From Trichodelitschia bisporula (lineage: Eukaryota; Ascomycota; Dothideomycetes; Phaeotrichales; Phaeotrichaceae), in NCBI GenBank assembly GCA_010356995.1, contig ML996701.1:3160-67159 (forward strand): 64,000 nucleotides of DNA. The letters run 5' to 3'. This document shows positions 3,355 through 60,296 of this stretch, one piece after another. Under the pieces are notes generated by a model that worked only from the letters and a program-made list of their open reading frames with translations, did not search any database and was not told where the DNA came from. Position numbers and translations under genes: made by a program. Numbering within the stretch: the stretch's first letter is position 1; each line of letters begins with the position of its first letter.

Positions 3355-4162
3355 TGTCCCTCGTCGCCGGCCCCGGCCGCGGCGGCGCCCTCTCCTCGGC
3401 ACCCTTCCCACAGTAACTTCACACCAGCGCCCACGTGCGCTACATTCAAACGCTAGACAAGCGGCGCGACGAATTTGAGTACTGGTTGACGGAACATCTA
3501 CGACTAAACGGATTATACTGGGGCTTGACCGCGCTGCACCTGCTCGGGAAGCCGGACGCCTTGCCCCGCGACGAGGTGCTCGACTTCGTGCTCAGCTGTC
3601 TGCATGAGTCGGGCGGGATGGGTGCTGCTCCAGGACATGATGCGCATATGCTGTATACTGTGAGCGGAGTGCAGATTTTGGCGCTGGTGGATGGATTTGA
3701 GGAGCTTGAGGCGAGAGTGCCGGCGGGGAAGGAGAAAATTGCTAAGTGTGAGTTTGCTGGATAGATGTGGACTGGACTGACGGAGCAGTTATTGCGGGGC
3801 TGCAGGACCCAGCTACGGGGACGTTCTTCGGCGATCAGTATGGAGAGCCTGACACGCGCTTCCTGTACGGAGCGCTGAATGCGCTGTCACTCCTTGGTCG
3901 CTTGGATCTCGTCGATGTTCCCCGTGCGGTGACATATATCGAGTCCTGCGCTAATCCCGACGGTGGATATGGCAATTCGCCTGGTGCAGAATCGCATTCG
4001 GGCCAGATATTCACCTGCTTTGCGGCGCTGTCGATTGCGGACCGCCTTGATACAGTCGATACGGAGCACTTGGCTGGGTGGTTGAGCGAGCGGCAGGTGT
4101 CCGAGGGCGAGGGTAAGGGTGGATTGAACGGACGGCCGGAGAAGAAGGATGTCACGGTATGA
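3355..4162 (+). pseudogene. BET2: BET2 (Rab geranylgeranyltransferase beta) copy, truncated
   Basis: Exon 1 starts with ATG at 3355 (MSLVAGPGRGG) and meets an in-frame TAA at 3414; in the same frame the protein then continues as YIQTLDKRRDEFEYWLTEHL and GLYWGLTALHLLG. An intron at 3748-3788 joins KEKIAK to FIAGLQD. Exon 2 carries the prenyltransferase repeats ([45 protein letters not shown]) and stops at 4162, at the point where the family has the zinc-binding DVCYSWW. The last third, with the remaining zinc ligands and repeats, is not found downstream. The family enzyme attaches geranylgeranyl groups to Rab proteins and is essential in yeast, so a working copy should exist elsewhere. An intron at the final GTATGA cannot be excluded, but no matching exon is visible. 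Confidence 0.8.
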
Positions 4163-4800
4163 CACCCGGTTTCTGCTGCTCCATGGGCTCGCACCATCCC
4201 CGGGTTTGTATGGGGCTTGGCGCTGTGCCAAGCCCCCACATTCACACTCATACACCAGGCCTACTTACCCGCAGTCCCTGACATCCTTGCTCCGTAGCTT
4301 TACAATCTACGTCTTACCCACATCTTGATCGTGCATGCGTGATTGTTGACGGTGACACACCCGGAAGACTGCCGATGAATCATGAATACAAGATGGCGCT
4401 CTACTCCGTGGGATTGAAGACGACTCGGATCGAAGGACTCGCTGTGGACAACGACCGACCGTGCGAATCCCACCCTTCGGGGTGCCAACACGTCATGAAC
4501 GTTGGACTTGGGGAAATCATGCACCTTCGGACGTTCCACTCGAGAGTCCCGGAAGACCGAACCTCGTTGACATGTGTCAGGGGCGCACAAATCACTGGTT
4601 GCACAGCATTGGTTGTGGAATAACATTCATTGAAAGCTTGAAGAAGTATGTAAGTGTCATGGTTCTGGCCATACACGGTATGATGCCTCAGGCCAAGATG
4701 TGGTCTGGGTGGCAGCACAGTACCGAGGTGACGTATGGAGACTAGCGCAGTCATGTGACTGGCGCCAAGCCCCCACACTGCGGTTATGCTTTTGCACCCC
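4163..4800. other. Gene-free stretch after the BET2 break, with possible terminal inverted repeats
   Basis: TGGGGCTTGGCGC at 4211-4223 and its complement GCGCCAAGCCCCCA at 4762-4775 face each other about 565 bp apart. The left end is itself a hairpin, GGGGCTTGGC (4212-4221) against GCCAAGCCCC (4227-4236). No target-site duplication is visible and no transposase is present. It could be a non-autonomous DNA element or chance. Confidence 0.35.
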
Positions 4801-4971
4801 CATCCCTGTAGATTACTTCTCCAACTCTTTATCATCGTCTCGAAGCAATCCATGGTTTTTGCACCGCTCTTCGCTGGCACCGTGACATCCATGTAGATTA
4901 CTTCTCCAACTCTTTTATCATCGTCTCGAAGCAATCTAAGGTTTTTGCACCGCTCTTCGCTGGCACCGTGA
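4801..4971 (+). repeat. Tandem duplication, unit 85-86 bp, two copies
   Basis: The units at 4801-4885 and 4886-4971 differ at only a few bases; both contain GATTACTTCTCCAACTC and end in GCTGGCACCGTGA. No coding frame is conserved. Confidence 0.9.
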
Positions 4972-4996
4972 CATCGAGGGCTACACGCAAAACTCG

Positions 4997-5091
4997 CTAA
5001 GTACCGGGAAATTAGCTGAGTACCGGGTAATCACCTGAGTACCGGGTAATCACTTGAGTACCGGGTAGCTAGCTAAGTAGCGATAGTCGGC
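4997..5091 (+). repeat. 19-bp tandem repeat, about five units
   Basis: Units start at 4997, 5016, 5035, 5054 and 5073, exactly 19 bp apart, with consensus CTGAGTACCGGGTAATCAC. The last unit is degenerate. The array ends about 200 bp upstream of the GFA gene and could be part of its promoter or a plain minisatellite. Confidence 0.9.
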
Positions 5092-5287
5092 TATCACTTT
5101 TCCGCCTAGCCCTTCCGACCCTAGCATCAGAATCCCTCTCCGATCGAATCTTGTTTCCCCCGCCTACTCCCGAATTACTGTCTCAGCATCCTACATTTAG
5201 CGACTCCAACGTCCTCGAGCCGTGTCATCTTAATCCCCCTTCGATTCCTCTTAAATCAACGGCCTCGTCCAAAACCCGGTATCAAAC

Positions 5288-5761
5288 ATGACGGACCAAC
5301 TTCGCGTGGTCTGCCAATGCCGCAACGTCTCGTTCCCCGCACCTGAACCACAGCCACGCGCCCTCTACCATTGCCATTGCCTTGAGTGTCGCAAGCAGTC
5401 CGCGTCAGCTTTCGGGACGACCGCCATATTCCCCGCGGAGCCGTTTTTCCCTTTGGCGCCCGAGCTGAAGGCTAAACTCAAGATCTGGCAGCGGCCGACG
5501 GAGACTGGCGGCACTATGGACTGTTACTTTTGTCCGGAGTGCGGGGTTCGGGTGTTTCACCGCATCTGCAATGCCGATGGAAACTGGAGGGATGTAATCA
5601 GCGTCAAAGCGGGCTGCATTGAGGGCCTGGAGTGGAACGCGACGGCACATCTCTTTGCGCGATCGGCTGTGTTCCCAATTCCGGCGGACCACCAGGCTTT
5701 TGACACGTACCCGCCGACAATGGAAGGTGGGCACGGCGCCGTCGGTACGGAAAAGAATTGA
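5288..5761 (+). CDS. GFA/CENP-V domain protein
   Basis: A complete single-exon gene of 157 residues. It has the zinc-binding cysteine pattern of the GFA family: CQC at residues 9-11, CHCLEC near 28-33, and CPEC near 84-87, with LKIWQRP and TGGTMDCYFCPECGVRVFH in the usual order. The family is named for glutathione-dependent formaldehyde-activating enzyme, but most fungal members have no tested reaction, so a role in formaldehyde or aldehyde handling is only a family-based guess. No signal peptide or membrane segment is seen. It converges with the cyclase gene, whose end is 211 bp away. The 19-bp tandem array lies about 200 bp upstream. Confidence 0.85.
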   Translation: MTDQLRVVCQCRNVSFPAPEPQPRALYHCHCLECRKQSASAFGTTAIFPAEPFFPLAPELKAKLKIWQRPTETGGTMDCYFCPECGVRVFHRICNADGNWRDVISVKAGCIEGLEWNATAHLFARSAVFPIPADHQAFDTYPPTMEGGHGAVGTEKN

Positions 5762-5972
5762 AGCAGCTTCGGTTTTCTCGGCAGTTTGATGTATGGGTGG
5801 AAGGGATTAGCTTCCATCAGGCCGGTAGCAATGTCGGTGAAGCGCTTGCACGGAACACAAATGGACTCATTTGCGCAAAAAAACATGTGTACCGTTCTGT
5901 GTCCGGCCTGAGACCCGCTGCAGGCTCAGCTTGTTCAACATCGAACTCGTTCTGAGACAGGGTGGTTCTAAC

Positions 5973-7134
5973 TCATGCCGCTAAGCTCACGCTCTGCAGC
6001 TCTTCCTCCAGCTCCTCCATGACGCCCCTTTTGACGTCACCTGCCACGAGCGCCACACCCTCGCATGTGTCATCGTCAAAATCGACACCGGCGACCTCCC
6101 ATGCAACCCACTTCGCCGTCTGCGTGTGAAGACTTTCCGCACCCGCCGATACCGCACTCCGCCCGCGCGCGACCGCCTGAAACACCACCAGCTGGTCATG
6201 CATGTGCTCATCGACGCATCCGCCATGTGCCAGTTCGCTGCTCAGTTCTTTGACCACGCACTTAACCATTGCCGCCACGGCAACCTCGCCCGTCGCCTTC
6301 CGGTCGAACAGCCAGTCGCGCCCGAGCCGGCAGCCGGTGCTCGTCACCGCGATTAGCAGCAGGTACAAGCGCTTCGGGTGGCGGGAGTCCTCAAAAGCCT
6401 CATCGACGGGGATACCGGGAAATGCACGCCCGAGCGCGGGTGCTAGCTCGGTGGTGAACATACGAGCTGTCGATGAAGGGGCCACAATGCGTGTAAGAAC
6501 GCGGACCACCTCCCCGCGCTCGACCAGCGTAAACGCCGGCAGACTCTCGTCCCGGGCAAGAGGTGTGATCCCGAAAGTCACCTCGCCGACCTCGTTGCGG
6601 CCGGTGCTCCAGCCGCGACGGTGCAGCCTCACTGTAAGCGGGGGAAGACCGATCAAGTGCAGCATCGGGACCAGCACGTGCGTGACGTAATCGATTGACG
6701 GCGAGTTGGAGACGTTAGTGCCGCCATGGATGGTCAGAGCCGCGTGGTTTTCACTCGCAAAGAGAATAAACGGCAACAAGGCCTGGAAGACCAGCGTGAC
6801 GCTGCCGGGGCTGCCGATATCGATGGGCGGCACGGATGTGAGGCGGACATGTGTCTGCGGCGTCAGCCTTGCGATGGAGCCATTGCAGACGTACCTTCGG
6901 CCGGAACAGTAGCTCACGGCTGCCTTTGGCGTCGCCTTCTACCCGCGCGGAGCATGCGTCCGCCAGCCAGCGCACGGCTGAGAGGTGTTGGCCTTTGATG
7001 CCGCGCGGGCCGCTGCGGTTTCCGCGGATGTCGGTGATGCGGACTGGAGTGCCGGTTAGGGCTGACAGGCCTACGGCGAGGCGGAGGAGTTGGCCGCCTC
7101 CTTCGAGTGTGGTTCCGAGTAGGTCAACGACCAT
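5973..7134 (-). CDS. RTC1: RNA 3'-terminal phosphate cyclase
   Basis: Two exons, 7134-6895 and 6854-5973, joined across a 40-bp intron (GTACGT...CTGAC...CAG), give 373 residues. The N-terminus has the cyclase signature LEGGGQLLRLAVGLSALTG and the block RGNRSGPRGIKGQHL; exon 2 continues VRLTSVPPIDIG. Near the C-terminus HMHDQLVVF supplies the His expected as the adenylylation site in true cyclases, which favours the enzymatic RtcA type over the ribosome-biogenesis paralogue Rcl1. The family converts RNA 3'-phosphates to 2',3'-cyclic phosphates using ATP. The ATG at 7134 places the signature at residues 11-17, as usual. The gene symbol is given by family and is not certain for fungi. Confidence 0.85.
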
Positions 7135-7569
7135 AATTGAAGTTTCGGTTTTTCAATTTAGACGTCGGAAGCATGATAGATTAAATGCAGGTGTGGCTGT
7201 TACACCGCCACATCAATAGAGACACCGGTGTGACTCAGCCTCCCTCCACATCCCGACCTCTTAGCCTTGCAAGGATTCAGCGGCACATTGACAAAGACAG
7301 GACACTCAACAGATACTTTAGCTCATTCTGCATTGGTTTCGCTCTGGCTATCTTTAAACTCAATGCCACTGAACTTGGCCCTCGTATTGAGCATCTGGGC
7401 CGAGACGTTTTTATCTATTAACCTCTCGGCGGAGCTCCATCCCCGAGACAGACGGCAAGTCGCTCTCGAGGATATCCGCAAGGGCTTATCGGTACCCTCT
7501 GGCCAGTCACGAAGATGCCTTAATTGAGTAAGCGGGACCGAGACGTTACCCGGCTTCCTTTCCAACGAA
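7135..7569. other. Spacer, no gene seen
   Basis: Between the start of the cyclase gene and the 3' end of the small cysteine-rich gene at 7570. Only short unrelated frames. Confidence 0.4.
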
Positions 7570-7743
7570 CTAATTCCGCAACGGTGTGCATTTTTCACAG
7601 CACCAATCCTCCCGTGCAACCTGCCTGCTCAATTCGACGGTGAGCAGGCACCAAACAGGTTTGCAGGTTCCCAAAGTGCATGGAAAGTAGTGCTGATACA
7701 CCGTGGGACAGTAGATACACCTGAGGTTGACAAATTGACACAT
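7570..7743 (-). CDS. Small cysteine-rich protein, array copy 1 (57 aa)
   Basis: ATG at 7743, TAG at 7572-7570. The 57-residue product has nine cysteines (residues 2, 9, 12, 22, 27, 32, 48, 49, 52). It starts MCQFVNLRCIYCP and has FPC at 20-22 and DWCCEKC near the end. Copy 2 of the array (8349-8519) shares the start pattern MCxxVxLRCIxCP, the PC at 21-22, the Cys at 27, and the ending W-x-C-x2-C, although the two DNAs are well diverged; this selective retention of cysteines argues for a real protein. A TATA box lies about 60 bp upstream. The paired CxxC motifs suggest a small metal-binding or disulphide-knotted fold. No signal peptide is evident. Function unknown; it may relate to the many short fungal Cys-rich proteins that begin with MC and end in a CxxC. 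Confidence 0.6.
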   Translation of the reverse strand: MCQFVNLRCIYCPTVYQHYFPCTLGTCKPVWCLLTVELSRQVAREDWCCEKCTPLRN

Positions 7744-7800
7744 TTCGGTTGAAAATCGACTCTTAGATTCGTCGTCATCAAGAAGGGCAGCTGCGGCGTT

Positions 7801-7808
7801 ATTTATAG
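7801..7808 (-). promoter_or_regulatory. TATA box of cysteine-rich copy 1
   Basis: The minus strand reads CACTGAATATGGTCTATAAAT, matching in order and spacing the CACTG...CCTATAA segments before the other two copies. Confidence 0.55.
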
Positions 7809-8348
7809 ACCATATTCAGTGACAAAGACCACTGAGTCTCACTTTGGTGACGCGATTATCCGGTGAAGCAGGGCCGGTATTTTTCACAGTGAGTACGACA
7901 CATACAGACCCAGAAGGAGGACTGGTTCATTAAGGTTGCCTATGACTTAACTCTAGTCTGTCTCGGTGTAAACGCACAATGAGGAGCCGTAGGGCTATTG
8001 TGATAGGCCCGGCCCGACATCATCCAGCGGGGCGCAATACCGATTCGCCTGAAAGCCCCCATGCTCATCGAAACGACATATCCTCTCGGGGATGGAACAA
8101 GGCTGCCTAGGACATTCGTCAGGCGCTACCGTTCTTCCGGAAGCATCCATCTCGGTGGCCTAGCATACCTCAGCGACGGGAACGCCTCCAAGCTCCCTTG
8201 CTCGTTGAAACAGCAAATCGTCAGTGAGGATGGTGCAATGCTCGCCTAAAACTCTTGTCCGTCGCTAAAGTTCTCCTCCGAGCTTTCATCGCAGCGGAAT
8301 GGCCTGCTCAACGGCGGCAACCGCCGGCCTCCCAGGGACTTACCAGTC

Positions 8349-8519
8349 CTAAGAACCCCCGCAGCAGGGACAGGCCCATGCTGATATCGGGATTCGCTCG
8401 ACAATGTCCGGGGTAAGCAGTACTTCATACTTCGTAATGCACACCGGACGACCACAGGGAAGAACCCACATAAATTGCTGTGGGCAGGAGATGCAGCGAA
8501 GCTTAACCTCGCCGCACAT
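8349..8519 (-). CDS. Small cysteine-rich protein, array copy 2 (56 aa)
   Basis: ATG at 8519, TAG at 8351-8349, 56 residues with eight cysteines (2, 9, 12, 22, 27, 50, 52, 53). It begins MCGEVKLRCISCPQQF and ends WACPCCGGS, matching copy 1 at MC, V5, LRCI, CP, PC22, C27 and the terminal W-x-C-x2-C. The upstream frame can be extended through a GTG but the ATG aligns exactly with that of copy 1. A long CT-rich leader of about 140 bp separates it from a TATA box, and that leader contains an internal duplication of about 60 bp. Just after the stop a GTAAGT occurs that is also kept in copy 3, so a spliced form with a different C-terminus is possible. No relative of known function is recognised. Confidence 0.6.
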   Translation of the reverse strand: MCGEVKLRCISCPQQFMWVLPCGRPVCITKYEVLLTPDIVERIPISAWACPCCGGS

Positions 8520-8662
8520 TATGCATAGCACTCAACGGTAGGAAGTCGTTTGGGTTGTTGGGTTGTAAGGAAACGGGAAAAGGAATGGTATTCGCTAGTA
8601 GGAAGCGTTGTGGGGGTGTTGCGTTGTATGGAAATGGAAAAGGAATGGAAGAGTTGGCGAGC

Positions 8663-8669
8663 TTTATAG
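8663..8669 (-). promoter_or_regulatory. TATA box of cysteine-rich copy 2
   Basis: The minus strand reads ACCTATAAAGCTCGCC after CACTGAGTGC; the same arrangement precedes copies 1 and 3. Confidence 0.55.
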
Positions 8670-8875
8670 GTCGCACTCAGTGATGGGTTCCATTGACAGA
8701 TAGGGAGTGAACGGTCTACCTGTTGAGTACATGAGTTCACGGCGAGGTACGACAAATCGTCAGTGAGGCTGGTGCTAGGGTCGCCTATAACTCCCGTCAG
8801 CTGCTAAAGTTCCTTGAAGCTCTCATCCAGGCGAAATGGCCTCTCCAGGGCGGAAGCCGCGGGCCCACCAGTAAC

Positions 8876-9058
8876 TTACCGGTTAGGAGTCCCCTTGCAG
8901 GTGGGAAAGTGCCAGTCTTCTAGCGAGATTCGATCGTAGAGCTCTGAGGTAGGACGTGTACGTCTGAGCCACCGACAGCCTAAGTGACTATCACGTGGGA
9001 TGAAAAGCTCATACTGTTCTTCACAGCGGATGCAGAAAAGCCAAACCAAGTGGCATAT
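8876..9058 (-). pseudogene. Small cysteine-rich gene, array copy 3, start codon lost
   Basis: The frame homologous to copies 1 and 2 begins with ATA at 9058-9056 where they have ATG, followed by TGC, and has no in-frame ATG upstream. It keeps LFCIRC, IP near residue 21, a Cys near 28 and DWHFPTC near the end, but has lost the second Cys of the terminal pair and the CP after the first CxxC. It ends at a TAA (8878-8876) inside GGTAAGT. The leader and TATA box are intact, so it may still be transcribed. It could be a dead copy or start at a non-ATG codon. Confidence 0.5.
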
Positions 9059-9143
9059 CGTGAGTGGTATTCGATGGTAGGAACCGTTGTGAGGTTATTG
9101 CGCTTGGATGGGAAACGGGAAAGGAAATGGAACAATTAGCGAG

Positions 9144-9152
9144 CCTTATAGG
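9144..9152 (-). promoter_or_regulatory. TATA box of cysteine-rich copy 3
   Basis: The minus strand reads CCTATAAGG following CACTGGATACGT, the same order as in the other two copies. Confidence 0.5.
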
Positions 9153-9225
9153 ACGTATCCAGTGACGGGCGCCATTGACAGACAGCAAGTGAACGGTCCA
9201 TCGACCATGTAAGTTCGCAGCCAGG

Positions 9226-9765
9226 TGAAGGTGAGTTGCTACCGCCCTTTCACCGGAACAAGTATACCGAACAGACTCACAAATCCAGTTCGTCAAACGA
9301 GCTTATGAGTGAGTCCGTGGCCTCTCACGAAAGAGCCAGAATTTGAACTTACAGGTACCATAGGAATTGCATTTCCCTCCGGAATATCTCCAAGCACAAA
9401 ATGCATTATACATAGGTGTAAGGACATGCTGGAGACGCTGGACGGTTGTGGCTGTGATGTCGAAGTGGATGGAGCCCGAGCAGGCCTTGGTAGTCGCGGC
9501 GATGACATGTCCGAAGCGGATCCAGCATAAGGCTTAGGTACCTGAAGCCGCCAAGGGTGTGAGGGTTAAATTTTCTTGTTGAGGGGAGGTTCGCCTCTCT
9601 CCACTCCGGTCCAAAAGGGTGATGGTCCATTGAGGCGTAACCGCTTCGTATCCGAGGACGCAAACCCAGCTTAACGACAGAAAAGCCCGAGCCAAAAAAA
9701 AATCGTATCCATCCACCCAGTCCTGCCTGAGCAGCCCCTGTGCAAGTCAAAATAGACAAAAGAAG
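9226..9765. other. Spacer between the cysteine-rich array and the tRNA
   Basis: No convincing gene. A minus-strand frame starting at ATG 9427 (MSLHLCIMHF) loosely resembles the start of the array proteins but lacks their other cysteines. Confidence 0.35.
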
Positions 9766-9846
9766 CGACAGTGACAGGATTCGAACCTGTGAGGCCGAAG
9801 CCATATGATTTCTAGTCATACCCATTAACCACTCTGGCACACTGCC
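9766..9846 (-). tRNA. tRNA-Ser (AGA)
   Basis: The minus strand folds as a type II tRNA. The 5' GGCAGTG pairs with CACTGTC at the 3' end (one G-U), the D-loop contains AGTGGTTAA, the anticodon stem TATGA/TCATA encloses CTAGAAA with anticodon AGA, and the T-arm is ACAGGTTCGAATCCTGT. The variable arm GGCTTCGGCC is long, as in serine tRNAs. No intron. It lies alone in a gene-poor stretch. Confidence 0.93.
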
Positions 9847-10662
9847 TGGACTGTACTGCAAAGGGCGTTATGCTGTATACAGTGAGGACCTGAGCCGGAC
9901 CATTATCGCCAAAAAGCCAAAGTCGCGCTGCGCCAACTCTGAAAGCGAGCATCGGAATCTCGCAAGGGCTTGTACGCGGACGAGCACCCATTGAACCCAT
10001 TGAAGAGCCACTTCAACAGAGATCCTTCTGCATGGCTAGGAGACAAAGGACTCACGAACATCCCGCTTGTGCCATCTAAGCCATGTGCACATACGAGTCG
10101 GCGATGAGGCTGCGCGAAGACAATACGCCAAAGCGTTACCGTCACAGTCGAGGAGCGGTCATTCCTCCACCTTCTCATATTGCCCCGACGGTCCTCGCAA
10201 TGCTTTAAAAACATGCGGCATCGGTTTGCCGACGGTTATCAAAACTGGACAGTAGGTTGAACAGGGCGGACATCGCATGACCGCATCGCATAATGCCTTC
10301 CCATAACGTATTCCATCGTTGTCCGAAGTCATAGATTGTTGCAGCTCTCAGATAACATAACCGACTCCGAGCGCCGCCATCCATGCCTCCATTTGTGCCA
10401 TATCTGCAGATCTTACTCATGCTATGTCGTGAAACCTGTGCTCGTTAGTGATGTCCAGCTAGCTCACAGGACAACCGCGCCCATCAGTGCTCTCTTTGGT
10501 CGTCATAGCCAGAGGATACCTCCGCTCAGACCCCGTGCCGGGCTTCGGACGGAAACCACAGCACACGAGGCTTGAATTCATCCTTTGGGTGTGGCAGGAA
10601 GTAAAGTAAAAAATAGACTTACCACGTATCATGTACCGTCAACCACCGTCAACATTCTCAAT
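9847..10662. other. Spacer, no gene seen
   Basis: From the tRNA to the 3' end of RIO1. Short frames only, without recognisable content. Confidence 0.4.
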
Positions 10663-12305
10663 CTAGCGCTTCTTCGTCCGCGCCGATCCGCTGACAAGCT
10701 GCTTCTTGACGTGCTTCGGTATCTTAACCTTACGCTTCTCGCGCTTCTCCTCCTTGACCGCATGCTTGTGCGCCTAGCCGGTCAGTACCCCGCAGACAAA
10801 CCTGGCGACAAAGTCAGACTAACCTTCTTCTCCTCCTTGTCGATGAAGCGCTTCCCCCGCGGCGGCCCATCCTCGCGCTCCTCCCACTCCTCGCTGCCAC
10901 TCTCGTCACTATCCGTCTCCTCCTCCTCTTTCTCGTCCCCTCCCACCGCCAGCAGGTCCTGATACACCAAACCCCCAGCGCTGGCCTCAAGCGTGTCGCG
11001 CTCAATGTCGTACACCTGCTCCAGATTCTGTGGAATGTACTGCTGGCGGAAGACCTCATCCTCGACCGAAGCCCGCTCAGCACCAGCCTCATCCAGCGCC
11101 GCGCGCTCCGCCAGCAACCCCTCCAGCTTCGCGAGCATATCCGGCTCCGACGCTGAACCCTCCCCGGTGATGAATGCGTACACCTCGCGCTCCGAAAGCA
11201 CGTCGACACCCTTGCGGCGGAAGAAGTCGGTCACGTTCTTGATGTCCATGCGCAAAAACTCCAGGCTCTTCGGATGGTCGTGCTCAACGCTCTGGCTCAC
11301 ATCGATGATGTACACCTTATCCTTCCAGTACATCATGTTGTACTCGCTCAGATCGCCATGAACCAGCTGGCACACCTGGTGCATACGCCGCATCCACCCC
11401 AGCGCCGACAGGTACACGCCGCGCCACCGGCTGTCGTCCTCGAACACGACATCCTTCAAGCGCGGCGCCGGGTAGCCCTTCTTATCACCGAGGAAGGACA
11501 TGACGAGTACGTGCAGGCGAAGGTACAGCGGCTCGGGGCATGGGATTCCAGCGCCGTGGAGCCTCTTCAAATTGCGCATCTCCTTGTCCGCCCACACCTT
11601 GACCATCGCGCGGTTCGAGCGCTTGTTGTAGCCGTGGCGAAAGCGGTGCTCGCCGATGATGTACTTCGAGCGGTCCTTGAACTCGAGAATGGCCGTCTTG
11701 TACACTTTGATGGCGCGGTGCAGCGGCGGATGATCCATGTCATCGTCCGGCAGCGTTACAGCGTGGTAAACATTCGCCTCTTTACCGGTCGAGATGCACC
11801 CGTTGATCTCGCTCACAACCCCACGGTTGATCATCTGCAGCAACAGCATACGCGTCCGCGGATCCAGCACCTGCTCGCTCGTGGCGCGGTCGCTCTTGTC
11901 CTTGTCCCGAGTGCGATCAGAGGACGGGCCGGACTCATAAATCTTGATCTTCCCGGCATGTTTTGCGAGCGACGCGATCTGGTCGTCCAGTGCGGCCGTT
12001 GTGTTCGCCGAAGGCTTCTGCGGGTTCGTACGCGGCTTGTACTCGTCCGGCACACTGGGGTCGGCGAGGCGCCGCGCGCGATTGTATGCTTTGGTCAGGT
12101 CATTCGGGTCGCCGGTGAAGTCTTCCTCATCGGGATCATCAAAGAGGTCATCGTAGTCGGTGTTGGAGTCACTGGTATCGTCGTGGGAGTCATGGGTCTT
12201 GTTGTTGCGCGGCACGGTTTGAACGTTGTCGGTCTCGGCAAAGTGCACGGACTTGTCGATGAAGGCGGGCGCAGCAGCAGCGGCGATTTGCGCTGGGTGC
12301 GGCAT
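10663..12305 (-). CDS. RIO1: RIO1 family atypical protein kinase/ATPase
   Basis: Exon 1 (12305-10824) and exon 2 (10773-10663) join across a 50-bp intron (GTTAGT...CTAG) to give 530 residues. The RIO1 landmarks are all present: the ATP-binding loop STGKEANVYHA, IKVYKTAILEFKDRSKYI with the catalytic Lys, the FRHGYNKR flexible loop, the catalytic HGDLSEYN and the metal-binding IIDVSQSVEHDHP. The N-terminus is acidic and disordered; the C-terminus ends in a Lys/Arg-rich tail (KREKRKVKIPKHVKK). The intron falls just before that tail. Rio1 acts in late cytoplasmic maturation of the 40S subunit (20S pre-rRNA processing). ATG17 follows upstream in the same direction with a 527-bp gap. Confidence 0.96.
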
Positions 12306-34174: not shown

Positions 34175-35957
34175 AAGCGCTTACTTTAGTCATACATAAG
34201 TTTCTGCAGTCATACAAACTGTAGTCATACACTCCTTCCCTATCCGCCCCCAGTATCCGGCGCATGAAGCGCTCTCTCCGTCCGACCGATCGAAATCGGC
34301 TCAAACATCACCGTCAAGAAGCATTTGAAGCCATTTCGATTGCCACGGCAGGCCCGTCCATACCTCCCGCGATCCCAAAGCAAAAACAATCTGGATAGCG
34401 CTCCTGGCCGGGACTCTCCCAGTCTTGATCCTGCTCATTCAGAAGAGTCCTCAAGCTGTTGATGTCGCCACCAGCAACCAAGTCCGACGTTCAAAGAAGC
34501 GCCTGAGTAGGCAATTCCAAACATCGCTGCCATATTCCAAGACACTGTGAGGTCCAGAATTGGCCAGATACTGATAGTGCATGCGTCTATGCAACTTTAG
34601 CACGATAAGGGCCAGAGTTGCACGGACGCATCCACTATCAATGTCTAGCCGGTCCTCGACCTGACAGTATCTTGGAAGGTGACGACGAAGCTACAGCTAC
34701 GTTTTTTGTCATTGTGGTCCACGCTGTTGGAGTAGCGAAAAGCGCTGGGTGATTTTGAACCATGTGGGACGGCCATAGAGCTGCTGAGTGGCGTACCGAA
34801 CCAGTTGGTGGTGATGCGGTGTGAACCAACAAGTCGACTCTTTCGGGAAAGATACAGATCTCAGAGTATGGGACTGAATATCAAACATTGCGGGCGCGGA
34901 GGCAACGTTCAATCGGGCTGTTCAGGCGTTTGCACATCATGGGAATTGAGTCTTCGAGCTTGAAGCCACTTCTCAGTATTAGTACACGTAATGTGAAGAT
35001 ACGCGGCCTGACCTACCGCTCAGTCCAAAGCAGCTGAGTTGAACCCGAATTCGAAGAGGGCCAACAACAACATCAACTGGGTCCGCCCACTCCCGTCGCC
35101 GAAGTCACCGGCCAGGCGGTCACTGTCGAGCGGCCAGCCCCTCCATTGCCCTGGCGGCTGCTGCATCGATGGCCTGAGGGCGAAAGGCCGGAATGAAGGA
35201 TCTTTAAAGATCACCCAGGTCGAGATCGGTGACATTTGACAGGAACTCCATGGATGATTGCCGTTCGTATGGTCGATTTGAATGTTGGCGTAGAGCACAG
35301 TAAGCTAGGACTGGGCTGTGTCATGGTGAACTGGTGCACTGGAGGACTGAAGGCATTCTGGAAGAAGTTTCTGGATGGTCAGACTAGTGGATATATGCCG
35401 CCCGATTCCAAAGACGTCCGCAGCGTGCCGACATCCAGGGAACTAAGAAGCCGCTGAATACCTCCACACTGCCGCGTGACCTGTAACCCATAGGTATACC
35501 TACCGGTTGCGGGTCGCGCGGCAGTATGGATGGCAGCAACGGCTGCTCAGTTCGCCTACAATGATCAGCTCGTTGCGTATGTTCCCAAGCACCGAGGCGG
35601 AAACGAGCTGGAAGTCTTTCAATGGCTTGCTTCGCCGCGTTTTTGTCAAGAGAACAAGCCATTGAAAAACTTGCAGTAGATGGCCGCGTCGGTACTGGAG
35701 AATGAGCCGTATCATTGCATGCACCCCGTCGAGGCGTGAGCAGGTGCAGTTTCTGAAGTGCGGGCGTTGGATGTTTCCAGCTTCACGAATTAGTTGAGTA
35801 ATGCTTTCTGAGGGCGCCCACTCACCTTGAGAGAAAATTGTTGAGCTTTGTGTGCCACTGCGAGAGGAGTTAGCCTGTTCGATTATAAAATGCGTGAAAG
35901 CTGCTCACCTCTCCGTGCAGGGCAGCGAGATGGTAACTGAGACAAGGTGTCTACGGA

Positions 35958-55655: not shown

Positions 55656-58600
55656 ATGTCCGGCTATCCAACACCAGACACGGAGCCACGCTTCAAGCCC
55701 CCGCCGCGCGGGCTCGGCGAAACCACGCCTGACTCCTCGTCGTTGAAAGTTCCCGCCTCCACGACGCCGGAGGGAACACCACCCTCCCAAGACCTCCTCT
55801 CAGACACCCCGCCAAGCCGCACACTCCTCCCCGCCATGGACCTAGACACGCCCCCCTCGCGCAACCCACGCTCTACAACGCCCCTCGACACCCCCCCCTC
55901 GCACAACCCCCTCACGAGAACTTCAAAACGGCGCTCCCGCGGCAAAAAGCGCCCGCCCGCCTCGCCCTCCGACGACTTCGAAGAAACAAACCTACCCGCC
56001 TCCAGCGCGCCCGGCATAACCTACACGCCCGCAACCGACCCGCCGCCCACGCCCACCGTCATCGAAGGGCCCCGCACGCCTCCTATGCCCGCCAAGCTCC
56101 GCCCCGAGCCCCCGTTCGCTGACCGTCTCCGACCGGCCCACAGCGACACGGCATCGGAGCGCAGCACGCCAAGTCCGCCGCTGAGCGAGGTGAGTACGTT
56201 GGAGGATACGCCTTCGCGGTTGGCGCCGGGGGGGGTGTTCAAGAGGCCTAAGCCGCCGCGGAGTGTGCAGGGTAAGGATGGGAGTCCGAGTCCGTTGAAG
56301 AAGGCGGAGCGGCCGAAGAATGACCGGGAACGGACGTGGAAGAAGAGCTTTGATGATAGTGCTAGTCCTGGGGAAGGGGAAGAGGAGGAGGAGGTGAATG
56401 AGACGCCTGCGATGAATGAGGAGGAGCAGAGGGCGTTTACGGGGTTGTTGCCTAAGCTTATGAGCATGAGTGTTGCCATGCCTACCAAGATGCCGTGGAA
56501 GAAGGCGCTGAAGGTGTGGGCGCACAAGCAGCTCCGTATAACCGCGATTGGGGACGAGTTTTTGTACCGGTTTGGGTATCAAATGCTTTGCGCGTATGAG
56601 TCGGAGTGGAGCAGGCGGGAGGAGGCGAGTCTCAAGTTGACAAAGCTGGAGAGGCAGGATCGCACGAAGATGAAGGAGTTCGAGCAGCTGGAGGCGGATA
56701 AAGAGATTCAGCTGGAACAGATTGCAGAGCTCAAGAGACAGAACGCGGATCTGCGGACAAAGAATGCGACGCTTGAAAATAAGCTCGTTCTCGCGCAGGA
56801 GAAGATCAACGATTCGCAAAACAACCGCGGCAAGAATATTGAGGAAGAGGAGGAAGAACAACTGAAGATCGCCCAGCTGACGGAAGAGGTTGAGGCGTCG
56901 ACGAAGATGAACACCGCCCTCAAGATCGAAATGGCGCACGCCCTCCGCGCCCGCGCCCGAGCCGAAGACGCAGCAAAGGCCGCCGAAATCCAGGCCGTGA
57001 CGATGAAGACCCTGGCCCTGCAGTATGGCGAGATGGCCGCGACGTACGAGAAGGGCATGGGCATGGTGGAGCTGGCCGACGGACTGGAGGCCGAGTTGCT
57101 GGAGCACGGCACGAAGCTGGACGCCTCGCGCCAGGCCGAGCTGATGTACATGGACGAAATCGACTCGATGAGGGAGAAGAACAATGAGCTGGTTGCCAAG
57201 ATCGCGGCGCTTCAGGCTGAGAACGAGAACCTGGAGGATCATCTGGATGATGAGAAGGCGAAGTTGGTGATTTGCACTCGGCTTCTTGGCGAGGCGCGCA
57301 AGGAGCCCGATTTGTCCCTCTCCACGGTGGCGGAGATATCCATCAGTCCTCGCGAGGCGGAGCCGCCGTCACGCATTCCGGATACCAGGGACAACGACTC
57401 CGACGCCGCCGATCCGGATGGCGGTCCAACCCTCGTCAACGCGCCGGAACCACCGCCCTTCCAGCCCAGCTCAAAGGGCAAGGCCCCCGTTCAAAAGACC
57501 TTCCAAAACAAGGACTCCGCCTCCAACGATCCAGACGGCGGTCCAACCCTCGTCGACACGCCGGAACCACCGCCCTTCCAGTCTAGCTCAAAGGGCGAGG
57601 CCCCCGTTCAAAAGACCGTCCTGTACGGCGATTATTACATCGCCCGGCATTTAGCAGCCGCTCCCGAACGCATCCGTCTCCGGTATGAAAAAGCAGAGCA
57701 GGTCATCGACAAGGAGTTAGCAGGTGCTTCCGAGGCCATCCGCAACGAGTATAAAAAAACACAGCAGATGATCGTCTTCGCCGAAGCACAACAAGAATTC
57801 ATCCTCCAACAACTAGACGGCATCCCGGACACCAAGGACAACGATTCCGCCTCCAACGATCCAGACGGCGGTCCAACCCTCGTCGACACGCCAGAACCAC
57901 CGCCCTTCCAGCCTAGCTCAAAGGGCAAGGCCCCCGTTCAAAATACGTCCAAGTACAGCGAGTGGGTCGCCGCGCAATTAGCAGCCGCTCCCGAGGACAT
58001 CCGTCTCAAATATGAAAAAGCACAGCAGTTCATCGACAAGGAGTTAGCAGGTGCTTCCGAGGCTGTCCGCAGCCGTTATAAAAAAGCACAGGAGGCGATC
58101 GCCATGGCCGAAGCACACCAAGTATCAATGCTCAAACAACTGGACGGCATCTCAACCGACCACGACGACCTCCGCACCGCCTTAACTGACCTCCGCAAAG
58201 ACCGCCAACCGCCGCAAGACCGCCGCAAGGCCGCCGAGCCCGAACGCCCCAAGCGTGGCATTCTGTGCCCTGGGGATACCATGCAGCAGAACTTGAATCC
58301 CGACTCTCGTCCCGACTTTAATACCAGCGACTGGACGCACGAAGGCAACCTCGAAGAATACGGATTCCCGCCCCAATACCCGCCCATGCCGATTCCCTCC
58401 TCTGCCACGAATCCGTCCCCACCCAACGCCGCCCCACCACGCGCCCCTTCCGCGCCAGCAGAATCATCAAACGCAGCCGGCAAGCGACCCGTCCTCTCTG
58501 ACTCCATCACCGGGCCCGCCCACCCCCCACCCGCTGACCCCTCAACCTACCTCCCCGCCGGCCACATCTCGCGCGAAGATTTCATCCGACTGAGCAAGGA

Positions 58601-60296
58601 ACTCGCCACCAGGCCCGACGCGGGCGTCGCGCAGCGCGAGCTGCACAAGCGCATGGATGGCCAGTGGGGCGAGCCCGCTGCCCCGGCACCTCGCCAGAAC
58701 CAAGACCCCCCCCCCGCCAAACAGCACCCTCTCGACCCGTCCGCCTCCGCGAGCGGGCCCAACGCCGCCCTGCCCGCTGACCCCTCAACCTACCTCCCCC
58801 CCGGCCTAATCTCGCTCGAAGACGTCCACCGACTTCGCAGGGAACTCTCGCTGCGGCCCGACGCGCCCGTCGCGCTGCTCGCGCTGGCCCAGCGCACGGG
58901 GAAGCAGTTCGCCGAGTACATCGCGCTGCGCGAGCTGTACGAGCGCGAGGAGTACGAGCGCACGGGGCAGTGGGGCGCGCCCTACCCCTTTCTCCCACCC
59001 CAGAGCATCGGCCCGGTGCCCGCCAAACACCACCCTCCCGGCCCCTCCGCCCCCACCGCCGGGCCCGACGCACCCCCGCCCGCCGACCCCGCGACGTATA
59101 CCCCCCTCTGGCCTCTCTCGCACGAGGCCGTCGAACGGCATCTCAAGGAGCTTTCCAAGTGGCCGGATGCCGACGTCGCGCTGGGCGAGCTGTACAAGCG
59201 CACGGTGGAGGAGTGGGGCGCGCCTGGGGCCCCGGCGCCGCACAAGAACAAGGACCCGGTGCGCGGGCCGAGGCCGGGTCCGGCTGCGCCGCCGATGGGG
59301 CTGAAGCCCCACCCGTTGACGCATATTTTTGTGCATCCGATGGACCCGCCGTTCCGGATGTTGCTGCCTGATGGGAAGAGTAGGGTCTACTTCCCCGACG
59401 GTACATTCACTGTGCAGCACGAGCGCTGGGCCTGCCCCACCGGTATTAATGCAGGTGGATGGCCAGGTGAATCGAGCGCGGAGGAGGCAATTCGTGCCGT
59501 GGAGCGGGTGTGGGAGATTAGTGCGGCCCTTTCAGACACCGACGGGTCCGAGTACGGGGATGTAAACGACGCCGGCAGGGCTCCTAAACGCGACGGGGGT
59601 CCTCTGCCTGATGGGGTGAACAAACGCAGCAAGGGTGAGAAATCGAGGGCGAGGTCAAGGGGAAGGAGGAGGGATGGGGGGATGAATTTCGATGGCGCTG
59701 GATCTGTTGTGGGTGAGACGGCGGAGCGTGCGTGGGGGACGGTGGATGGGGTCGATGGGTGGACGGGACTTGACGGAAACGACTCTGTGAAGAGTGCGAA
59801 GCGCGGCCGCAGCTCGAAGCCCAAGACGCGCACTCGATCGCGCAGCGTGGGACCGTCGGTACGTGCCTTGTCGCCGGAGAGTGGGCAGGCGCGCGTTGTT
59901 AAGTTCCTCGAATCATTCCGGCGGTCTCGGTCCGCCGATTCTAGTTCTGCTTCTGGCAAAGATTGGGGTCGGAAGCGGCGCGATATCCCTGAGAACGTGT
60001 TCATCCGCCCGGACATCCGCTACGCGCAGCACCGCGCGACGCACATCTGCCTCCCTAAGCCGAACGAATACGTCCTCGCCTCCATCGCTGTCTTTCTCAT
60101 CAGCTGCCTATTCTGGTTCGTCGAGGGCTTGGTCAATCGAGAGCGGGGGTGGACGGTTAGGCCCGGTGTGCTGGGGTATGGCTGGATGGAGGATGATGGG
60201 TATTGGGCGCGGAGGATTGGGGAGTTGGGGAGGGCGGCGGGGAGGGTGAGGTGGCTTGTTGGGCCTGCTGGGAGGGGGCGGTGGATTGGGGTTTGA
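55656..60296 (+). CDS. Large repeat-rich coiled-coil protein with C-terminal membrane span (1546 aa)
   Basis: Single exon from ATG 55656. Residues 1-250 are Pro/Thr/Ser-rich with DTPPSRN-like units; about 260-330 (FTGLLPKLMSMSVAMPTKMP, KVWAHKQLRITAIGDEFLYR) look folded; 330-560 are a long coiled coil. Residues 573-835 hold three copies of a linker (DPDGGPTLVDTPEPPPFQ) alternating with two copies of a helical unit (LAAAPExIRLxYEKAxQxIDKELAGAS). Residues 955-1215 hold three copies of another unit (PADPSTYLPxGxIS...RPDAxVAL...QWG). Then basic Ser/Arg-rich sequence and a membrane span near 1472-1494 (YVLASIAVFLISCLFWFV) close to the end. I recognise no family. The layout suggests a tail-anchored tether or scaffold on a membrane; that is inference. 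Confidence 0.75.
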   Translation: MSGYPTPDTEPRFKPPPRGLGETTPDSSSLKVPASTTPEGTPPSQDLLSDTPPSRTLLPAMDLDTPPSRNPRSTTPLDTPPSHNPLTRTSKRRSRGKKRPPASPSDDFEETNLPASSAPGITYTPATDPPPTPTVIEGPRTPPMPAKLRPEPPFADRLRPAHSDTASERSTPSPPLSEVSTLEDTPSRLAPGGVFKRPKPPRSVQGKDGSPSPLKKAERPKNDRERTWKKSFDDSASPGEGEEEEEVNETPAMNEEEQRAFTGLLPKLMSMSVAMPTKMPWKKALKVWAHKQLRITAIGDEFLYRFGYQMLCAYESEWSRREEASLKLTKLERQDRTKMKEFEQLEADKEIQLEQIAELKRQNADLRTKNATLENKLVLAQEKINDSQNNRGKNIEEEEEEQLKIAQLTEEVEASTKMNTALKIEMAHALRARARAEDAAKAAEIQAVTMKTLALQYGEMAATYEKGMGMVELADGLEAELLEHGTKLDASRQAELMYMDEIDSMREKNNELVAKIAALQAENENLEDHLDDEKAKLVICTRLLGEARKEPDLSLSTVAEISISPREAEPPSRIPDTRDNDSDAADPDGGPTLVNAPEPPPFQPSSKGKAPVQKTFQNKDSASNDPDGGPTLVDTPEPPPFQSSSKGEAPVQKTVLYGDYYIARHLAAAPERIRLRYEKAEQVIDKELAGASEAIRNEYKKTQQMIVFAEAQQEFILQQLDGIPDTKDNDSASNDPDGGPTLVDTPEPPPFQPSSKGKAPVQNTSKYSEWVAAQLAAAPEDIRLKYEKAQQFIDKELAGASEAVRSRYKKAQEAIAMAEAHQVSMLKQLDGISTDHDDLRTALTDLRKDRQPPQDRRKAAEPERPKRGILCPGDTMQQNLNPDSRPDFNTSDWTHEGNLEEYGFPPQYPPMPIPSSATNPSPPNAAPPRAPSAPAESSNAAGKRPVLSDSITGPAHPPPADPSTYLPAGHISREDFIRLSKELATRPDAGVAQRELHKRMDGQWGEPAAPAPRQNQDPPPAKQHPLDPSASASGPNAALPADPSTYLPPGLISLEDVHRLRRELSLRPDAPVALLALAQRTGKQFAEYIALRELYEREEYERTGQWGAPYPFLPPQSIGPVPAKHHPPGPSAPTAGPDAPPPADPATYTPLWPLSHEAVERHLKELSKWPDADVALGELYKRTVEEWGAPGAPAPHKNKDPVRGPRPGPAAPPMGLKPHPLTHIFVHPMDPPFRMLLPDGKSRVYFPDGTFTVQHERWACPTGINAGGWPGESSAEEAIRAVERVWEISAALSDTDGSEYGDVNDAGRAPKRDGGPLPDGVNKRSKGEKSRARSRGRRRDGGMNFDGAGSVVGETAERAWGTVDGVDGWTGLDGNDSVKSAKRGRSSKPKTRTRSRSVGPSVRALSPESGQARVVKFLESFRRSRSADSSSASGKDWGRKRRDIPENVFIRPDIRYAQHRATHICLPKPNEYVLASIAVFLISCLFWFVEGLVNRERGWTVRPGVLGYGWMEDDGYWARRIGELGRAAGRVRWLVGPAGRGRWIGV

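Follow-up and report, generated by a model that had tools for sequence, protein, structure and literature searches.

What do three short, cysteine-rich open reading frames standing in a row on the minus strand of a fungal chromosome represent: a family of small genes, the remains of one, or a repeat in which the frames are incidental? The frames occur in a 64,000-nucleotide stretch of DNA (the window; contig ML996701.1, positions 3,160 to 67,159) from Trichodelitschia bisporula, a dung-inhabiting Dothideomycete of the order Phaeotrichales. This window lies inside an 815,436-base contig of the 25.65-Mb genome. An earlier note, made from the sequence alone, had described the frames as an array of paralogous genes, and the coordinates that it gave for all three frames, with the strand and lengths (57 and 56 residues) of the two open ones, are confirmed. 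The three copies are arranged head to tail.

7570..7743, minus strand: copy 1, a frame of 57 amino acids, apparently intact
8349..8519, minus strand: copy 2, a frame of 56 amino acids, apparently intact
8876..9058, minus strand: copy 3, 60 residues with no start codon at the homologous place, a probable pseudogene

The homology of the copies, their head-to-tail order, the in-frame protein similarity and a repeated promoter motif are established. Judged from the sequence, the array appears to be a real small tandem gene family in which two copies look intact and the third is probably dead, and its proteins probably bind metal. Copies 1 and 2 have in common the pattern MC-x2-V-x-LRCI-x-CP, a PC at residues 21-22, Cys 27, a tryptophan and a final CxxC. 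In total, 18 of 53 aligned residues are identical between them, including Cys 2, 9, 12, 22 and 27, the tryptophan and the final CxxC. The earlier note had assigned this pattern to all three copies, and it holds in full for the first two but only in part for the third. Copy 3 retains IC-x2-V-x-L-x-CI-x-C, Cys 28, the tryptophan and the last cysteine, and it lacks the arginine of the pattern, the proline of CP, Cys 22 and the first cysteine of the last CxxC. Two of the shared cysteines are absent from it, and the residues kept in all three copies are Cys 2, 9, 12, 27 and 53 and Trp 48 (copy 2 numbering). Copy 3 had also been called broken, which is correct in that an isoleucine codon occupies the start position and cysteines have been lost, but the frame contains neither an internal stop nor a frameshift.

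The alignment scores of 85 for copies 1 and 2 and 63 for copies 2 and 3 were reached by none of 5,000 shuffles each, and the score of 56 for copies 1 and 3 was reached by 2 of 5,000. We then compared translations of the DNA around the frames in nine forward and nine reverse frame pairs per comparison. With copies 1 and 2, the score is 85 in the proposed frame and never above 28 in the 17 remaining pairs; with copies 1 and 3, the proposed frame reaches 58 and the remaining pairs again do not exceed 28. The comparison of copies 2 and 3 discriminates poorly (76, followed by 63 and 58 in other frame pairs) because their DNA is still alike. Among the sequence evidence, the confinement of the similarity of copy 1 with copies 2 and 3 to a single frame is the strongest argument that these are genes. 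A profile built from copies 1 and 2, as the earlier note had proposed, also recovers copy 3 (E 1.1e-7; next frame E 0.45) among 4,793 frames of at least 35 codons in 264 kb, comprising the window and 20 further stretches. Four frames in the 264 kb start with MC, have 40-90 residues and carry two CxxC motifs, two of them being copies 1 and 2. The bare motif is therefore not rare, and it is the aligned similarity that carries the weight.

A promoter-like arrangement, described in the earlier note as CACTG-n(5-8)-CCTATAA, is indeed present at all three copies, but the spacer is exactly seven nucleotides and copy 1 reads TCTATAA.

7803..7821, minus strand: CACTG-n7-TCTATAA upstream of copy 1
8664..8682, minus strand: CACTG-n7-CCTATAA upstream of copy 2
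9146..9164, minus strand: CACTG-n7-CCTATAA upstream of copy 3
8538..8648, minus strand: copy 2 leader with an internal duplication (8538-8588 versus 8598-8648, 83-85% identical)

The sequence CACTG-n7-[C/T]CTATAA occurs three times in the window, compared to a mean of 0 in 40 composition-only shuffles. It occurs 0 times in another 200 kb of the contig, and nowhere in the 264 kb besides the three copies. The TATA elements precede the start-codon positions of copies 1, 2 and 3 by about 63, 148 and 91 nucleotides, respectively. The short CT-rich leader ascribed to every copy is evident in copies 2 and 3 and harder to make out in copy 1. Copy 2 additionally has an out-of-frame upstream ATG (8526-8503, minus strand), whose short frame, MHNVRRG, overlaps the main start codon and could dampen translation.

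Units 2 and 3, meaning these copies with their flanking DNA, have in common a further feature that had not been described, namely a conserved 3′ module of about 130 nucleotides after the ends of the frames. A decayed extra copy of this module adjoins that of unit 2.

8200..8335, minus strand: 3′ module of unit 2
8753..8875, minus strand: 3′ module of unit 3, 77-78% identical to that of unit 2
8063..8192, minus strand: extra diverged 3′ module adjoining that of unit 2; score reached by 0 of 300 shuffles
8338..8343, minus strand: GTAAGT directly after the copy 2 stop codon, candidate donor of an intron in the 3′ untranslated region
8874..8879, minus strand: GTAAGT overlapping the copy 3 stop codon, candidate intron donor

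The profile search of frames found no family coding frame beside the extra module. Branch- and acceptor-like sites follow in copy 3, and copies 2 and 3 may each have a 3′ untranslated-region intron beginning at GTAAGT. We rejected the idea that the 3′ module holds a coding exon, as differences there lack codon periodicity (13/47, 10/48 and 10/47). An RNA element was likewise rejected, as Rfam (E up to 1, positions 4000-12000) gave only a tRNA and one sub-threshold match at 4185-4238.

The family had further been proposed to be kept by selection, with a ratio of nonsynonymous to synonymous substitution rates (dN/dS) near 1 named as a result that would count against this. Copies 1 and 2 are identical at 47, 49 and 32% of codon positions 1, 2 and 3, with proportions of nonsynonymous and synonymous differences (pN and pS) of 0.52 and 0.77, the latter saturated. 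The contrast of positions 1 and 2 against position 3 gives p = 0.06, and we lean towards purifying selection on this pair. The proposal does not extend to copies 2 and 3 (pN 0.48, pS 0.41; dN 0.77, dS 0.59): their dN/dS of about 1.3 is the kind of result named as counting against it, and copy 3 looks dead. Between these two copies, identity is 81% upstream, 67% within the frame and 77% downstream, and differing sites are more frequent in coding (53/160) than in flanking DNA (62/297; p = 0.005). Transitions outnumber transversions in the flanks (36:26), and the coding part shows the reverse (18:35; p = 0.015). However, the coding alignment of copies 2 and 3 is uncertain and contains several gaps, so their fast coding divergence is a lead rather than a result. 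The excess may reflect diversifying selection, constrained flanks, or an old exchange of flanks between units. Repeat-induced point mutation would not explain it, because 35 of the 53 coding differences are transversions.

What proteins might copies 1 and 2 encode? The best AlphaFold2 model of copy 2, computed with a three-sequence input, has a mean pLDDT of 83.1, and its strands 2-8 and 15-20 flank the first CxxC. The structure matches are weak, and small domains held by a metal turn up in them repeatedly (S27e, PerR-Zn, rubredoxin B, RbpA and MCM chains); the matched RbpA and MCM regions are presumably zinc-binding. Both CxxC pairs are present in copies 1 and 2, which at the sequence level is a feature of rubredoxin-like and zinc-ribbon domains; as in those domains, the first pair is predicted to lie in a β hairpin and the last follows W-x. 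A crude hydropathy test of each copy's own frame (best 10 residues within the first 35) gave 1.07 and 1.36 for the intact copies and 2.45 for copy 3. By this test, which leaves room for an upstream exon, copies 1 and 2 have no hydrophobic, signal-peptide-like start, and metal binding is for this reason more likely than disulphide bonding.

The array proteins appear closest in kind to one-domain zinc finger micro-proteins of fewer than 70 residues, and copies 1 and 2 have the small size (<70 residues) and two CxxC-type motifs of the C4 class. The micro-proteins of Haloferax volcanii are also below 70 residues, with one domain, two CxxC-type motifs and a predicted four-cysteine zinc site, and 12 of 16 gene deletions gave a phenotype in at least one condition (PMC6562870). 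In contrast to the proteins considered here, they are archaeal and carry two C(P)XCG motifs, whereas in the array the CPxCG form is confined to the final motif of copy 2, and Cys 2, 22 and 27 are additional conserved residues. This is a likeness of kind, not an established relation in sequence. The NCBIfam family NF041197, a dual CXXC motif small (seleno)protein, is similar in being small with two CxxC motifs, judging by its name only. It matches residues 2-16 only of copy 2 at 12.9 bits, below the curated cut-off of 40, and leaves copies 1 and 3 unmatched.

How far does the family extend? In searches of the whole genome, whose counts are lower bounds, copy 1 found itself and copy 2 (E 0.022; limit E 10), copy 2 found itself and copy 1 (E 0.17; limit E 1), and copy 3 found only itself (limit E 10). 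Because copy 3 missed the other two, the first look of this search is not very sensitive. Up to E 10, a hybrid query returned no sequence besides the three copies, and DNA queries of 1,051 and 561 bases returned only self-matches. Thus, no fourth copy was found in the 25.65-Mb genome with protein, hybrid or DNA queries. No relative was found among 5.8 billion proteins or in viral or prokaryotic contigs. Pfam gave no match for any copy at E up to 10, and the best match in a PDB profile search had E 1.5. No described family was recognised for the three copies in Pfam, NCBIfam or the protein databases, and no publication recognisable as describing the family appeared among the titles and abstract openings covered by a literature search. 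These results, along with the frame-confined similarity of copy 1, bear out the proposal of an uncharacterised family of small cysteine-rich proteins in tandem. The array lies among the following features.

6917-5973: frame with an RNA 3′-terminal phosphate cyclase domain (domain search), on one side of the array
9846-9765: tRNA-Ser, on the other side
beyond the tRNA-Ser, away from the array: RIO1 and ATG17-like frames (domain search)
14024-12900: the ATG17-like frame, 100% identical to a T. bisporula database protein over 85% of the query

The other ATG17-like matches are at most 61% identical (best 120 of 202 matches listed), indicating that no close relative is among the matches listed. The array genes are probably unannotated, since they are unmatched in a database that contains T. 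bisporula ATG17.

Elsewhere in the window, tandem repeats of about 90 bases (4801-4889 and 4886-4975, 96% identical) are followed by a 19-base repeat around 5000-5075, together spanning 4801-5075. A second tandem repeat at 983-1315 consists of pieces that are 91-92% identical (983-1189 with 1110-1315; 983-1056 with 1236-1308). An internal repeat cluster (57373-58896, 81-89% identical) lies within a 1,546-codon frame at 55656-60296, and an inverted self match of about 121 bases (77% identical) occupies 35437-35557.

The explanation that we favour, with a probability of roughly 0.55, is that T. bisporula carries a tandem array of genes for small intracellular, zinc-held, one-domain proteins, with their own TATA promoters and with copy 3 dead. 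For copies 1 and 2, we infer transcription, zinc binding, fold, cell location and function as follows. Local duplication would have produced a tandem array of small genes, of which copies 1 and 2 encode one-domain proteins predicted to be intracellular. The CxxC at residues 9/12 in the N-terminal β hairpin and that at about 50/53 at the C-terminus would jointly hold one zinc ion, with the further conserved Cys 2, 22 and 27 alongside this site. A zinc-ribbon- or rubredoxin-like fold would then serve as a protein- or nucleic-acid-binding module. A separate TATA promoter would drive each copy, an arrangement suggestive of regulated expression, and copy 3 would be a pseudogene. Two considerations weigh against this explanation and reduce our confidence. 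Copy 1 has flanks whose relation to the other units is not clear: their scores against unit 2 were reached by 227 and 260 of 300 shuffles and do not stand out, and those against unit 3 were reached by 7 and 8 of 300, which is marginal among 15 comparisons. Duplication of whole units is therefore established for copies 2 and 3, while copy 1 shares only the protein and the promoter motif. In addition, the units may have undergone repeat-induced point mutation. TpA/ApT is raised in units 1, 2 and 3 (0.87, 0.86 and 1.04, compared to 0.61 for the window), the second index is lowered (1.01, 1.12 and 1.03, compared to 1.19), and unit 3 is near what we take to be the usual thresholds.

The same raised TpA/ApT values (0.86-1.04), the missing start codon and lost cysteines of copy 3, the decayed extra 3′ module, the dN/dS of about 1.3 and the lack of a match in the database containing T. 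bisporula ATG17 would all suit a decaying relic, in which the genes still worked at the time copy 1 diverged from the forerunner of copies 2 and 3 but some or all copies are now dead or unexpressed. We consider this doubtful, yet a serious alternative, given that copies 1 and 2 keep start, length, CxxC pairs and promoter motif despite near-random third positions (32% identical). The many conserved cysteines in a protein of fewer than 60 residues and the fast divergence of copies 2 and 3 could instead indicate real genes for a disulphide-bonded secreted protein whose signal-peptide exon was overlooked. This seems improbable: the only hydrophobic start belongs to copy 3, which has no start codon, the TATA-to-start distance of copy 1 is short, and CxxC pairs seem better suited to metal binding.

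A metallothionein-like metal buffer would likewise be small, rich in cysteine (8 and 9 residues, or 14 and 16%, in copies 1 and 2) and encoded in tandem copies. However, metallothioneins have a higher share of cysteine and few aromatic or aliphatic residues, of which the array proteins have many, and the AlphaFold2 model predicts a folded domain; we give this very little credence. Equally hard to credit is a non-coding tandem DNA or RNA repeat with incidental frames. Conservation between copies 2 and 3 is higher in the flanks than in the frame, as such a repeat might show, but copy 1 resembles the others in one translated frame only, and Rfam offered nothing beyond the two matches above. A long shot that builds on the zinc-held scaffold is that the coding part of copies 2 and 3 is under diversifying selection and outpaces the promoter and 3′ region. 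On this reading, the array would constitute a lineage-specific family for recognition or conflict inside the cell, based on a minimal scaffold, and its targets would be viruses or transposons, or it would have a role in self-recognition.

The array is a new orphan family of the ordinary lineage-restricted kind. If the favoured explanation of small zinc-held proteins is true, very small genes with recognisable promoters are missing from a database that holds other T. bisporula proteins. The array would also offer, within one contig, a compact example of a small orphan gene family duplicating, diverging and losing a member. Should relatives be found and zinc binding be demonstrated, the array would define a microprotein family in fungi that has not been described before.
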